Below, piece after piece: positions 13,362-18,207 of a stretch of DNA of 41,921 bases. Below the pieces are notes generated by a model that worked only from the letters and a program-made list of their open reading frames with translations, ran no database searches and was not told the origin of the DNA. Both the position numbers and the translations under genes were made by a program. The DNA lies in contig QHYM01000110.1 of NCBI GenBank assembly GCA_003223295.1, forward strand, positions 1 to 41,921, read 5' to 3'. This DNA comes from Acidobacteriota bacterium (GTDB taxonomy: Bacteria; Acidobacteriota; Terriglobia; Acidiferrales; UBA7541). The first letter of the stretch is position 1. The number at the start of each line of letters is the position of its first letter.

Positions 13362-13595
13362 CTACAGCTTGGGCTTGGGGGGAGGGAGTTCTCGCGCGAT
13401 TACCGTGTCGGAAAAGCCGGAAGTCTTATGCGAGCCGTCGCAGAAGGGCTTGTTCGCGGAGTGGCCGCAGCGGCACAGCGACACGATCGTGCGCCCGGCC
13501 AGCTCGAAAGGTGCTCCCTGAGGGTCCACGATTTCGAAATCGCCTTCGACGCGAATCGATCCGTTGCTATTGATGGTGATCTTGGTTGCCGCCAT
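13362..13595 (-). CDS. CDGSH iron-sulfur domain protein
   Basis: This is a small soluble protein of 77 residues. The complete [2Fe-2S] ligand set of the CDGSH (mitoNEET-like) family is present: C41, C43, C52 and H56, in the pattern CRCGHSANKPFCDGSH. The N-terminal half (ITINSNGSIRVEGDFEIVD) is the usual beta cap. These clusters are redox-active and labile. It starts 48 bases after the moeZ stop and is the last gene of the cysteine operon cysM-mec-cysO-moeZ. Its ATG at 13595 has AGGAG upstream. A role in electron or cluster supply to the sulfur pathway is inference from position only. Confidence 0.9.
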   Translation of the reverse strand: MAATKITINSNGSIRVEGDFEIVDPQGAPFELAGRTIVSLCRCGHSANKPFCDGSHKTSGFSDTVIARELPPPKPKL

Positions 13596-13643: not shown

Positions 13644-14828
13644 TTAGTATTTGGGAACCGACGGGTCGACCTCATCGGACCAGGCGAGGATGCCGCCTTT
13701 TAGGTTGAGAACTTTGCGGAACCCTGCTTTGCGCAAAAAGTCCACGGCTTCAGCGGAACGCTTGCCGCTGCGGCAATGCGCGACGATTTCCTGTGAGGAA
13801 TCGAGTTCGTGCACGCGCCGCGGCAATTCGCCGAGCGGAATCAGGCGGCCTTTGAGATTGCAAATTTGAAATTCGTGCGGCTCGCGCACATCGAGAATGA
13901 AAAGATCATCTCCGCGATCAATCCGGGACTTCAGCTCGCGCGGAGTAATTTCCGGCACCTGCACGTTTGGCGCTGGAGCTTCTTCCCCGCGCACGCCACA
14001 GAATTCGTAGTAGTCGATGAGTTTCGTGATCGTGCGATGCGAACCGCACATGGGGCAGTTCGGATTTTTGCGCAACTTGAGTTCGCGGAAACGCATTCCC
14101 AGCGCATCGAACAAGAGCAAGCGGCCAATGAGGTGATCGCCGCTGCCGAGAATCAATTTGATGGTTTCCATGGCTTGAATCGAGCCGACGATCCCGGGAA
14201 GAACGCCGAGCACTCCGCCTTCGGCGCAAGACGGTACCAGCCCCGGGGGAGGCGGTTCCGGATAAAGGCAGCGGTAGCATGGACCATCCGGCATGCCAAA
14301 AACCGTGACTTGCCCCTCGAAACGGAAAATGGAGCCGTAGACATTAGGCTTGCCGAGAAGGATGCACGCGTCGTTCACAAGATAGCGCGTCGGGAAATTG
14401 TCCGTGCCATCGACGATGATGTCGAAGTCCTTGAACAGTTCGAGCGCATTCGCGCTAGTTAATTGCACTTCGATGGACTCGATCTGAATGTCCGGATTGA
14501 GATTGGAAAGACGCGCGCGAGCCGCCTGGCTCTTGGGCCTACCGACGTCGCTGGTGCCAAAAGTAACCTGGCGCTGAAGGTTCGTGAAATCCACGACATC
14601 GAAATCGACAAGGCCGAGCTTGCCCACACCCGCCGCGGCAAGATACAAACCGAGCGGCGCGCCTAGTCCACCGGTCCCGATAAGCAAAACCTTGGCGTTC
14701 TTCAGCTTGAGCTGCCCCTCCATGCCGACCTCCGGCATGATGAGATGGCGGCTGTAACGCAGAATCTCTTCTTTGGAAAGACTGGCAGCCGGTTTAGTGC
14801 CGGGCTGCGTTTGAGTGCTTGTGGCCAT
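13644..14828 (-). CDS. moeZ: MoeZ: ThiF/MoeB-type adenylyltransferase with rhodanese domain
   Basis: The protein has 394 residues, typical of the two-domain MoeZ/MoeBR type. It activates the C-terminal glycine of a ubiquitin-like sulfur carrier with ATP and then loads sulfur to give a thiocarboxylate. The ThiF domain (about 20-265) has the nucleotide loop GTGGLGAP (51-58), DFDVVDFTNLQRQ, GTDN with D140, and zinc cysteines C184, C187, C258 and C261. C201 in PSCAEGG lies at the E1-type cysteine. The rhodanese domain (about 292-392) has its active-site cysteine C352 in HCRSGKRS. It lies 109 bases after cysO in the operon. The natural partner is therefore the adjacent carrier; it could also serve MoaD in molybdopterin synthesis. 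Confidence 0.93.
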   Translation of the reverse strand: MATSTQTQPGTKPAASLSKEEILRYSRHLIMPEVGMEGQLKLKNAKVLLIGTGGLGAPLGLYLAAAGVGKLGLVDFDVVDFTNLQRQVTFGTSDVGRPKSQAARARLSNLNPDIQIESIEVQLTSANALELFKDFDIIVDGTDNFPTRYLVNDACILLGKPNVYGSIFRFEGQVTVFGMPDGPCYRCLYPEPPPPGLVPSCAEGGVLGVLPGIVGSIQAMETIKLILGSGDHLIGRLLLFDALGMRFRELKLRKNPNCPMCGSHRTITKLIDYYEFCGVRGEEAPAPNVQVPEITPRELKSRIDRGDDLFILDVREPHEFQICNLKGRLIPLGELPRRVHELDSSQEIVAHCRSGKRSAEAVDFLRKAGFRKVLNLKGGILAWSDEVDPSVPKY

Positions 14829-14937
14829 TGCGATTCCCTGCCCCTCTGGATTCCTTCAGAATAGCAAAAATTCAGGACAAAAGACTTCTGAGCAAAGGTT
14901 ATCTACGGTAAGAAGCGCGTTTCGCTGGACCGGAGAC

Positions 14938-15225
14938 TTAGCAGGAACAACAACCGCCCGCAATAGAGGGAATGATGCTGATTGTGTCGCCGTCCTTGGT
15001 CACCGTGTTCTCTTTGGCGAGATAGCGAATGTCTTCGTCATTCACATAGACATTGACGAAGCTGCGCAGCCGGCCATCCTCGGTGAACAAGTGCTTGCGC
15101 AGATCGGCGTATTGCGTTGTGAGATGGCCGAGCGCTTCGCCAACCGTTCCGGCGTTGAACTCCGCGGAAGCCCGCTTCCCCGCGTACGGGCGAAGCGGCG
15201 TCGGGATCATGACTTTCACGGGCAT
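14938..15225 (-). CDS. cysO: CysO-like sulfur carrier (ThiS/MoaD family) with C-terminal GGCCSC
   Basis: This is a ubiquitin-like protein of 95 residues (MPVKVMIPTPLRPYAGKR, then DGRLRSFVNVYVNDEDIR and GDTISIIPSIAGG). GGAGGAG precedes its ATG at 15225. Ordinary carriers end in the Gly-Gly that is adenylated; here Gly90-Gly91 is followed by Cys-Cys-Ser-Cys and then a TAA stop. The tail (codons 14941-14952) must therefore be removed before activation, and the neighbouring JAMM protease is the obvious candidate. In Pseudomonas the QbsE carrier (GG-Cys-Phe) is trimmed in this way by QbsD, and in Wolinella HcyS by HcyD. Gene order assigns it to cysteine synthesis rather than molybdopterin or thiamine. 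Confidence 0.9.
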   Translation of the reverse strand: MPVKVMIPTPLRPYAGKRASAEFNAGTVGEALGHLTTQYADLRKHLFTEDGRLRSFVNVYVNDEDIRYLAKENTVTKDGDTISIIPSIAGGCCSC

Positions 15226-15289: not shown

Positions 15290-15754
15290 CTAAACTGCCG
15301 CGCGATGGCGAATCTCGATTCCCTCCGGCGAAAAAGCCTGGCGATCATCGTTCAGACGCCACGAGGTCATCTCCTGCGGCGCGCCATTGTGCACGCTAAC
15401 GATGACATAGCTATACCACGGCCAGGCATGCTCGCGGTCATAGTCGCTGGGCCGAGCGGGATGATCCGGATGCGAATGGTACCAGCCTATCACTTCAAGC
15501 CCCTGGGCCTGCGCAGCCTTGTCCGCCTCGAGCACGTCTTGACCGGTCACCGAAAAGCGGTTGCGGGGCGAATCGTCGCGGCGATTCACCAGCGGAAAGA
15601 GCCCGAGTACTTCGCGCACGGCTTCGGAATCCGTGGCTTCCAAATCGCGCCCCAACAGAGCTCCGCAACATTCATGGGGATACGTTTCCGCGCCATGCAC
15701 GCGGATTTTCTCCGCCAAGTGACTGCTGATCCACAACGTAGATTCGTCCGCCAT
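15290..15754 (-). CDS. mec: Mec-type JAMM/MPN+ metalloprotease
   Basis: The protein has 154 residues from the ATG at 15754; the frame is open to 15868 but that part overlaps cysM, and the ATG lies only two bases after the cysM stop. The JAMM zinc motif is complete: E28 in PHECCG, then H93 and H95 in WYHSHPDHPARPSDYD, with S103 and D106 (HxH-x7-S-x2-D). In the mycobacterial pathway Mec cleaves the CysO-cysteine adduct and frees cysteine. Here it may also cut the GG-CCSC tail of the carrier to mature it. It acts in the cytoplasm. Position between cysM and cysO strongly supports this function. Confidence 0.92.
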   Translation of the reverse strand: MADESTLWISSHLAEKIRVHGAETYPHECCGALLGRDLEATDSEAVREVLGLFPLVNRRDDSPRNRFSVTGQDVLEADKAAQAQGLEVIGWYHSHPDHPARPSDYDREHAWPWYSYVIVSVHNGAPQEMTSWRLNDDRQAFSPEGIEIRHRAAV

Positions 15755-15756
15755 GG

Positions 15757-16728
15757 TTAATCTTCGTCCCAGAACCGTTCGTTCAGGTACTTGGACGCAG
15801 AATCCGCAAAAACCGTGACTATCAGCGCTTGCTGCTGCTTGGGAATGCGCGCGGCAACCTCGAAGCAACCTAGCAGCGCCGCCGCTGAGCTGGGGCTGAC
15901 CAACAAGCCCTCTTCGCGCGCGAGGCGCTTCACCATCCGATAAGCCTCTTCCGAAGAAACCGGTAGATTCTCATCGGCGAGCCGGTCATCGTAAATCGCG
16001 GGGCGCATTGCAGTTTCCATGTGCTTCCAGCCCTCCAACCCGTGGAAGGAACCATCGGGCTGAAGACTCACGCAGCGTATCTGGGGATTCAGCTCCTTCA
16101 ACCGCCGCGTGGTACCTACAAACGTTCCGCTGGTGCCCAGTCCAGCGACGAAATAAGTGACGCGGCCGGAAGTCTGCTCCCAGATTTCATTTGCGGTGGT
16201 GCGGTAATGCGCCTGCCAGTTCGCCGGATTGCTGTATTGGTCGGCGTAGAAGTATTTGTCAGGCTCCGCAGCCACGATCTCGTGTACTTTGCGAATCGCA
16301 CCGTCGGTACCTTCGTCGCCCGGAGTAATCACCAACTCTGCACCATACGCCGCCAAGATGCGCTTGCGCTCGTGCGAAGCGCTATCCGGCAGGCAAAGCT
16401 TCACGGGATAGCCCATCGTAGCGCCAATCATGGCATAGGCGATGCCGGTATTACCGCTGGTGGCGTCAATGATGGTCTTGCCGGGTGTTAGCGCACCGCT
16501 GGCGATCCCCGCATGGATCATGCTGAGCGCTGGCCGGTCCTTCACTGATCCGCCTGGGTTGAACCATTCGGCCTTGGCATAGAACTCGACGTTCGAGAAC
16601 TTGCTGGCGATACGCTCCAAGCGAAGAAGCGGCGTGTTGCCAATGCGGTCCAGCAAAGATTCGCCCAAACGGCTCGGCTGAGTCGTTGATTCGTGGGCAG
16701 ATGCGGCGATTTGACCGGTAATAGCCAT
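15757..16728 (-). CDS. cysM: CysM: PLP-dependent cysteine synthase using the protein-bound thiocarboxylate
   Basis: The protein has 323 residues and a fold-type II PLP enzyme signature: the PLP lysine K63 in NPGGSVKDRPAL, the phosphate- or substrate-binding SGNTG at 90-94, and the glycine loop GLGTSGTFVG. It should add O-phosphoserine or O-acetylserine to the sulfur of the CysO thiocarboxylate, or to free sulfide. In actinobacterial CysM the donor is O-phosphoserine; which donor is used here is not decidable by eye. It is the first gene of the operon cysM-mec-cysO-moeZ-CDGSH, separated from mec by two bases. The region upstream (16729-16891) is divergent from the gene at 16892. Confidence 0.92.
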   Translation of the reverse strand: MAITGQIAASAHESTTQPSRLGESLLDRIGNTPLLRLERIASKFSNVEFYAKAEWFNPGGSVKDRPALSMIHAGIASGALTPGKTIIDATSGNTGIAYAMIGATMGYPVKLCLPDSASHERKRILAAYGAELVITPGDEGTDGAIRKVHEIVAAEPDKYFYADQYSNPANWQAHYRTTANEIWEQTSGRVTYFVAGLGTSGTFVGTTRRLKELNPQIRCVSLQPDGSFHGLEGWKHMETAMRPAIYDDRLADENLPVSSEEAYRMVKRLAREEGLLVSPSSAAALLGCFEVAARIPKQQQALIVTVFADSASKYLNERFWDED

Positions 16729-17383: not shown

Positions 17384-17680
17384 TCATTGCGATCCAGCTT
17401 CTTGCAGTTGTCGGCGAAACTGGGCAAGGTCGACGCGATGCTTCGCGGCTTTGTGCCTGCCGATGAAAATGACCGGGATGTCCCATCCATAACGCTCTCG
17501 CAAAAAGGCATTTTCGTCGATGTTGACCTCGCGAAGTGCGGCTCCAAACTCTCGGAGCAGCGGTGCGATGGCGGCCTTTGCTTCCTCGCAAAGATGACAT
17601 CCCGGGCGCGAGTACAACGTGACGTCGCGCGGCCCGCTGGCTGCGAGCTGCGCTTCTTCGGAAGAGGTGGTCGCGCTCAC
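17384..17680 (-). CDS. Glutaredoxin-like protein
   Basis: This is a protein of 98 residues. The start is the GTG at 17680, whose GTGA overlaps the stop of the DinB-like gene (17677-17680); the frame continues further up but that part is inside the DinB gene. The chain DVTLYSRPGCHLCEEAKAAI holds a thioredoxin-fold CxxC at C28 and C31, followed by the conserved cis-Pro context WDIPVIFIG. It belongs to the short glutaredoxin-like (DUF836-type) family of cytoplasmic disulfide exchange proteins. The overlap suggests translation coupling with the DinB-family gene. Confidence 0.85.
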   Translation of the reverse strand: MSATTSSEEAQLAASGPRDVTLYSRPGCHLCEEAKAAIAPLLREFGAALREVNIDENAFLRERYGWDIPVIFIGRHKAAKHRVDLAQFRRQLQEAGSQ

Positions 17681-18207
17681 GGCTGAGGATTGGAATACTT
17701 CATGAACGGGCCGGAATTCGGGTGAAATGCGTGCGCGCGGTAGAGTTCTTCGATCTGCCGCAGGTGGCCGAGGTCGTGATTGGCCCATTCGTGGAGCACA
17801 TGGGCGAGGGTGATTGTCCCAAGTTCGGAATGGACGCCGACGCGCGTGCCAGCAGAGGCTGGCAGTCCCGCCAGCATTGCCAGAGTTGAACGACGAGTTT
17901 GTATGAAATTCGCCAGGTTTTCAGTGCCAGAACCGTGGGAATAGTCTTCTCGCGCCTTAGCGCCATCCAAATCGTATTTCGCAAGCGCGGGAGAATCTTC
18001 GGCCACCATTCGACGAACGCGCTCGGTGTAAACCTGCTCGAGAGCCGCGAGATGAGCCAGCACTTCGGAGATGGACCAGCGGTCGGGCTTCGGTTTCCAC
18101 CGCAAAAGGTCGTCCGGCAAGTCTCCAAGCAGCGTTTCGAGAAGTTGCGGCGTCTTTCCTAGGAGCGAAATAGCTGGCTGAATCTCGCTGGCGGTAGCGG
18201 GTTGCAT
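17677..18207 (-). CDS. DinB/YfiT-like four-helix protein
   Basis: This is a protein of 176 residues with a strong GGGAGG before its ATG at 18207. The sequence has the DinB-superfamily features: an early helix ending LPDDLLRWKPKPDRWSISEV, the LAHLAALE segment with the first metal His, and LAHVLHEWANHDLGHLRQIEEL with further His residues that complete the metal site. Members of the superfamily act as thiol-dependent transferases or hydrolases; substrate cannot be predicted here. It is translationally coupled to the glutaredoxin-like gene through a GTGA overlap, which fits a thiol-linked role, but that is inference. Confidence 0.85.
   Translation of the reverse strand: MQPATASEIQPAISLLGKTPQLLETLLGDLPDDLLRWKPKPDRWSISEVLAHLAALEQVYTERVRRMVAEDSPALAKYDLDGAKAREDYSHGSGTENLANFIQTRRSTLAMLAGLPASAGTRVGVHSELGTITLAHVLHEWANHDLGHLRQIEELYRAHAFHPNSGPFMKYSNPQP

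Follow-up and report, generated by a model that had tools for sequence, protein, structure and literature searches.

A CysO-like putative pro-carrier and the association of sulfur-carrier tails and fusions with JAMM proteases in Acidobacteriota

The CysO-like sulfur carrier encoded in the 41,921-nt stretch of acidobacterial DNA analysed here (the window) is very probably a pro-carrier trimmed by a JAMM protease, in a phylum where JAMM appears to free carriers from ending at Gly-Gly. We infer the cleavage, its exact site and its enzyme from comparisons of genes and genomes. Trimming of this kind is an already known process; what appears to be new is its reach over several carriers of one phylum, the frequency of CysO-E1 fusion and an excess of cysteine in the tails.

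The genes of the locus follow one another along the minus strand in the order cysM, JAMM, carrier, and an E1 with ThiF and rhodanese domains (Table 1). The Pfam ThiS model matches the carrier at 48.6 bits (cut-off 22.5) in an alignment reaching residue 91, and the C-terminus reads ISIIPSIAGGCCSC (PSIAGG-CCSC; codons GGC GGT TGT TGT TCC TGC TAA). This agrees with the sequence-only reading, which had described Gly90-Gly91 followed by Cys-Cys-Ser-Cys and the stop. The function of the Gly-Gly pair is assigned from the established biochemistry of CysO, MoaD and ThiS, and a cut is expected after Gly91. The nearest solved relatives of the carrier are 3dwg, which we take to be M. tuberculosis CysO, and 4n6e (a ThiS/MoaD protein); both end at GG. 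With a beta-grasp ThiS/MoaD domain, a Gly-Gly motif and cysM, JAMM and MoeZ neighbours, the window protein resembles a CysO-type carrier, but the encoded Gly-Gly C-terminus of M. tuberculosis CysO is here followed by four residues, and we therefore class it as a CysO-like pro-carrier rather than a strict CysO. The closest named relatives are Acidobacteria metagenome assemblies.

Table 1. Positions within the window of the carrier gene, its parts and its neighbours.
Feature	Positions	Strand	Details
CysO-like sulfur carrier gene	14938..15225	-	95 aa, encoded as a predicted pro-form; Pfam ThiS match
Tail codons TGT TGT TCC TGC (Cys-Cys-Ser-Cys)	14941..14952	-	stop TAA at 14938-14940
Gly90-Gly91, predicted thiocarboxylate site	14953..14958	-	position from sequence and match alignment
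JAMM (Mec-type) metalloprotease	15290..15754	-	Prok-JAB 90.7 bits
cysM-like PLP-dependent cysteine synthase	15757..16728	-	PALP 242.4 bits
MoeZ-type E1, ThiF and rhodanese domains	13644..14828	-	ThiF 283.8 bits, Rhodanese 58.9 bits
Gap from cysO stop to moeZ start, 109 nt	14829..14937	-	no significant RNA structure

A Mec-type JAMM protease with intact zinc ligands had been proposed as the next gene upstream, and it is indeed there: its Prok-JAB domain contains HSHPDHPARPSDYD, which fits the JAMM motif HSHP-x6-SxxD and is preceded by PHECCG. No other protein of the genome matches Prok-JAB at E 0.001, and the nearest solved relative of this one is 2kcq. On the window cysM, the TIGR01138 cysM model scored 338.5 bits, under the model cut-off of 394.2. 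Neither a promoter-like nor a terminator-like site was found in the 109-nt gap, an Rfam search of the window returned no matches, and the fold of tail plus gap has a z-score of -0.34. Two further minus-strand ORFs flank the locus. Upstream of cysM lies a glutaredoxin-like ORF (SRPGCHLCEEAK, named by eye; 17384-17788), and directly downstream of moeZ is a small ORF (13362-13595) with CRCGHSANKPFCDGSH, presumably a CDGSH iron-sulfur motif.

The loci gathered numbered 319, of which 80 came from contigs of named genomes, 130 from a search of the phylum (195 of 396 genomes matched) and 109 from a search of the class (364 of 399 matched), the fetched loci being a spread of the listed matches. After 48 were dropped (47 duplicates or loci without a carrier, one cut at a contig end), 271 unique loci were left, the own-genome paralogues L002 and L003 standing outside this number. 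They comprise 90 in-frame fusions of carrier and E1 and 181 unfused loci. An exact GG end was found in 6 of the 181 unfused loci, and in 1 of the 145 (window included) whose fetched stretch contained cysM, JAMM and moeZ. The sequence-only reading had named Gly-Gly ends in the same gene context as the finding that would count against it; this objection does not hold, that single locus being the only such case.

Tails of the unfused carriers have a median length of 4 residues and range from 0 to 39, plus one of 136 (L032) that meets an assembly gap and was excluded from composition counts. Exact GG ends occurred in 4 of 103 clusters at 85% identity, as against 3.4 expected from the stop-codon frequency of adjacent DNA, and tails of five residues or fewer in 62 of 103, as against 18% expected. 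Exact ends are thus no commoner than chance, and long tails are rarer than chance. The constraint is thus weak, not absent, since a freely placed stop would leave longer tails. The tails of near relatives do not align. Plasmid records from other phyla (4 of 35 matching) gave GGI in Aliarcobacter, GGRS in Burkholderia and GG in two actinobacteria.

The five carriers most similar to that of the window (91-96% identical) all extend past GG, so a one-off sequencing error does not explain the window tail; having some tail is the norm in this group. Over the last 90 core residues these six are 88-97% identical pairwise, yet their tails read CCSC (window), CCCC, CCPL, GCCSR, CRS and CR, while sister lineages carry VPAME, GI, RS and others. 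Residues after GG change far faster than the carrier protein. The exact tail CCSC was found in no other unfused locus (181 checked), and a conserved CCSC motif was rejected on these near-identical carriers. The sequence-only reading had called for a family comparison of CCSC conservation and had suggested that the three cysteines could bind metal, take part in redox gating or form a blocking disulfide. When run, the comparison showed that near-identical carriers differ in how many cysteines the tail has, where they stand and how far apart, and 80 of the 145 same-context loci have no tail cysteine; neither function is supported for CCSC as such.

In a more general form, tail cysteines could coordinate a metal, or pair in a disulfide that holds off trimming until it is reduced. 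Cysteine-bearing tails do recur (79 of 181 unfused loci), and synonymous changes in one family, described below, hint at selection on the peptide. However, the conserved cysteine number and spacing expected of a metal or redox switch are absent even among carriers 91-96% identical to the window's, many same-context relatives have no cysteine in the tail, and protein chemistry does not predict the preference for TGT over TGC reported below. We consider such a gate improbable.

Some unusual carrier ends deserve mention in their own right. Locus L187 has a carrier ending in PSIAGG-SPSIAGG-CCCNL, which looks like a duplication of the Gly-Gly end and would offer two candidate cut sites. The window's own genome holds a second CysO-like carrier (L085, contig C220, 5437-5856), which ends GG-SPALLRA and adjoins a threonine-synthase-like gene (named by eye). 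A third (L086, contig C314, 2284-2613) ends GG-CESSVNSWRAHTRFCP; it follows a protein-kinase-like ORF and precedes a transposase-like one (both by eye), and translation running on into inserted DNA may account for its long tail.

We also compared genomes that differ in JAMM content. From a census of 197 genomes we took 24 with no (16) or weak (8) Prok-JAB matches, the weak ones (E 8.7e-6 to 7.8e-4) being counted as JAMM-less, and 24 with strong matches. Thirty carrier loci, ThiS and MoaD types included, were fetched per set, of which one JAMM-less match was cut at a contig edge. All 29 readable carriers of the Acidobacteriota with no or weak JAMM end at GG, compared with 10 of 30 in the JAMM-bearing set (Fisher p 1.4e-8, kinship ignored); genomes without any Prok-JAB match gave 19 of 19 (p 2e-6 against the same 10 of 30, kinship again ignored). 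The other 20 carriers of the JAMM-bearing set, ThiS and MoaD included, have a tail or a fusion. With types set by end motif and length, exact ends numbered 15/15 (no or weak JAMM) versus 3/11 (JAMM-bearing) for ThiS and 11/11 versus 5/11 for MoaD. By eye, MoaD is joined to MoaE-like and ThiS to ThiG-like sequence within the JAMM-bearing set. In this sample, residues after Gly-Gly accompany a genomic JAMM, as expected of JAMM-processed pro-carriers. The earlier proposal that the window protein is a pro-form, with the JAMM protein as its likely trimming enzyme, thereby gains strong comparative support, both from these 29 exact ends and from the one Gly-Gly end among 145 same-context loci.

Carriers need not have the protease beside them. 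A JAMM was sought elsewhere in 13 genomes, seven without an adjacent copy and six others of interest, and was found in all 13; in a second set without JAMM near the carrier it was found elsewhere in 9 of 9, one match lying below the family cut-off. In G145, a fragmented assembly with a fused carrier, the one JAMM match was sub-threshold (20.5 bits). One genome, G031, has a CysO-like match yet no Prok-JAB match; it is a possible exception, its carrier end lying outside the counts.

Some carriers weigh against this reading. MoaD and ThiS of the window's own genome stop exactly at GG despite its JAMM, which argues that JAMM permits tails and does not impose them; likewise, the CysO of actinobacteria stops at GG despite an available Mec-type protease. 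These own-genome MoaD and ThiS ends had suggested that tails are unique to CysO, an idea refuted by ThiS and MoaD loci elsewhere. Among 24 such loci in 12 other genomes, 8 were exact, 10 tailed, 5 long fusions and 1 unclear (ThiS: 4 exact, 7 tailed, 1 unclear; MoaD: 4 exact, 3 tailed, 5 long fusions).

Fusion is the extreme form of extension past GG. In 90 of the 271 unique loci the carrier reading frame passes GG into the E1, with 10-39 residues (median 19) between GG and the conserved E1 motif RYxRH in the 89 loci where the motif was found. No in-frame ATG occurs in the linker of 83 of these 89 fusions, so most would have no separate E1 ATG start there; some ATG, GTG or TTG codon is present in 64. 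On an E1 tree (FastTree, 243 sequences, many weak forks), the fused and unfused states require 19 changes, at least nine of them on starred branches. So many switches are hard to understand unless the junction between carrier and E1 gets cut.

Taken together, these observations are best explained by the following sequence of events. The neighbouring JAMM would cut after Gly91, removing CCSC and exposing the Gly-Gly end, which MoeZ would adenylate and thiocarboxylate. CysM would then build cysteine on the thiocarboxylated carrier, for this JAMM to release in the manner of Mec in the known pathway. With JAMM available, sequence beyond GG would be only weakly constrained. CysO in the phylum goes from exact ends through short drifting tails to in-frame E1 fusion, and ThiS and MoaD likewise from exact ends to tails and fusions. 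In class Terriglobia, the disposable segment, with its repeated Cys codons near the stop, may have acquired a second, probably regulatory, role.

In the 180 unfused tails no longer than 40 residues, cysteine accounts for 152 of 1158 residues (13.1%), whereas a three-frame reading of adjacent non-coding DNA gives 2.8%; when each 85% cluster is represented by a single locus, the counts are 85 of 657 against 2.5% in adjacent DNA. This is a roughly five-fold excess. The last eight residues of the neighbouring proteins hold hardly any cysteine (JAMM 6/1272, CysM 2/1216, MoeZ 0/1320), and fused linkers have it in 2 of 720 codons. Two or more cysteines were counted in 23 of the 103 clusters, where the null gave a mean of 1.9 and a maximum of 8 in 2000 draws. 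ThiS and MoaD tails have 5 of 89 (p = 0.045 versus CysO). Two large clades retain cysteine (22 of 23 unfused loci in one, 17 of 18 in the other) as other tail residues change.

Pure drift would have the stop codon wander once JAMM had made its position unimportant, the letters of the tail being meaningless. The unalignable tails of near relatives, the spread of lengths, exact ends as rare as chance predicts and the recurrence of fusions and fissions on the E1 tree all fit this. Drift accounts for the existence of tails, however, and not for the cysteine excess or its retention in the two clades, and a randomly placed stop would produce longer tails. As a full account we find it unlikely, and for cysteine content it is disfavoured. 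Two technical sources of cysteine were also rejected. An artefact of gene overlap fails since 41 of 84 clusters hold cysteine once negative-gap clusters are removed (with the null taken from the full set), and slippage on TGT repeats, possible for CCCC, fails for CICS (by reasoning). In seven loci (L054, L061, L068, L069, L071, L075 and L078) the RC or LC tails do stem from overlap of the moeZ start codon with the cysO end (CGATGCTAA or CTATGCTAA).

Cysteine could instead assist the protease. A Gly-Gly-Cys sequence might imitate the CysO-cysteine adduct that Mec cleaves, a cysteine at the first position after GG thereby aiding trimming. QbsE with QbsD and HcyS with HcyD are trimmed sulfur carriers with a JAMM partner, and the sequence-only reading had cited the GGCF end of QbsE; to our knowledge, no polycysteine tail has been reported for QbsE or HcyS. 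Of 174 tails with 1-40 residues, 23 (the window's included) have cysteine at the first position, but Ala (39) and Ser (30) are more frequent there, and Ser or Ala occupies it in 69 of the 90 fusions. The cysteines also lean towards the stop, with 115 of the 152 within the last five positions and 82 within the first five (short tails being counted twice), though the very first (23/174) and very last (24/174) positions are about equal. Such mimicry seems very unlikely.

Codon usage adds to this picture. The ratio of TGT to TGC is 57:28 in tails, 192:1222 in neighbouring genes and 35:55 in gap DNA. Cysteine codons near the stop hint at a codon-level or regulatory role no less than at one in protein chemistry. 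Because the tail would be cut off the protein, it can carry regulatory Cys codons: with JAMM removing everything past Gly-Gly, the last codons of cysO would be free to act as a regulatory leader. We regard it as possible, rather than probable, that Cys codons at the end of Terriglobia cysO sense charged Cys-tRNA and control the downstream E1, a role that may coexist with trimming. The excess itself, near absent at neighbouring gene ends, the clusters with two or more cysteines, the crowding into the last five codons and the choice of locally rare TGT would all be consistent with it.

A conserved form of tail was found in 15 loci of the f91 family (L070, L275, L278, L286, L288, L291, L295, L299, L307, L312, L313, L326, L328, L329 and L335). 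These share an LRC[IV]CS-like tail, the DNA RTCTGTAGNTAGCC and a hairpin that starts inside the stop codon. At least six of its seven outer pairs are kept in 15 of 15 loci around 15 different inner stretches, and the five folds tested had z-scores of -2.3 to -3.5. The Leu, Arg and first Cys codons of LRC[IV]CS vary synonymously, which suggests that the peptide is under some selection. The element is not a repeat: of the ten f91 genomes searched, nine have exactly one copy, and it is absent from the tenth and from the window's own genome. No Rfam family matched it, and a known RNA family was set aside as a candidate, since the two Rfam matches seen were sub-threshold, at chance level and on stretches other than the window. 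In two other loci, L211 and L212, the tail Cys codons pair within a small hairpin, making up one of its arms, and the stop codon lies in the loop; the L212 stretch has a z-score of -6.2.

Published cys leader peptides offer a precedent for such regulation. PMC1262725 describes actinobacterial candidates with Cys runs near the stop and reports, for Mycobacterium, no conserved terminator hairpin and a proposal of Rho-dependent termination; the cysS leader uORFC-8-2 has tandem Cys codons (PMC8632094), and polycysteine ORFs are, as cited by other authors, the subject of Canestrari et al. (2020). Those leaders are separate short ORFs, whereas here the codons end a working gene and the gap has no terminator. 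The likeness is real but partial: Cys codons do stand near a stop upstream of a cysteine-pathway gene, and neither a terminator nor alternative folds were found before the target gene. The window's tail and gap show no significant structure, a sister locus (L007) has a z-score of +1.93, and the f91 hairpin has no terminator U-run. Moreover, the association of Cys tails with moeZ gaps of at least 60 nt (52/71 vs. 22/83) is non-significant in independent tree pairs, and the cluster counts correct only partially for ancestry. The Terriglobia tail may be a cysteine-codon regulatory segment, an idea that is weak for the window itself. Somewhat less likely is the specific model of a built-in cysteine sensor, in which TGT-rich Cys codons would stall ribosomes whenever charged Cys-tRNA runs short and so set MoeZ expression, with the f91 LRC[IV]CS-stop-hairpin as its conserved form.

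If trimming by JAMM is the right reading, one protease would spare a cell's sulfur carriers from having to end at Gly-Gly, and tails and fusions (CysO-E1, MoaD-MoaE, ThiS-ThiG) would be explained together across a large phylum, as a bacterial parallel to ubiquitin precursors. The JAMM of the pathway would gain a maturation role beside cysteine release, and genomes would offer a simple test of JAMM substrates. The Cys-codon excess would possibly represent a discarded protein tail reused as a nutrient sensor.

Several known systems resemble the one proposed here. Searches of open-access literature by title and start of abstract, in some of which a term also matched the common word "this", listed no paper on CysO-MoeZ fusions or such tails. 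The actinobacterial CysO/CysM/Mec/MoeZ pathway has the same four gene types, and 3dwg is the best solved-structure match by sequence; its examined carriers, however, end at GG, whereas the window carrier has four more residues and many of its relatives are fused to E1. Row 4c of Iyer et al. (2006) shows this operon type, including an Acidobacteria member (Susi), and the same work describes ThiS-ThiG and MoaD-MoaE fusions and suggests that JAB frees ThiS or MoaD. M. tuberculosis MoaX is described as cut between Gly82 and Ser83, by a protease that the paper leaves unnamed, and DRJAMM as cutting D. radiodurans MoaD-MoaE. There, a cut after Gly-Gly frees the carrier, whose partner is MoaE, whereas here it would remove a short tail or the E1. 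In C. subterraneum, CsRpn11 is described as removing a 9-residue tail and CsJAMM as cutting CsSAMP precursors. As with CsUb-pre and CsSAMP, residues past Gly-Gly would be removed by a JAMM protein in Acidobacteriota too, though those are archaeal modifiers and the carrier studied here would serve bacterial cysteine synthesis.
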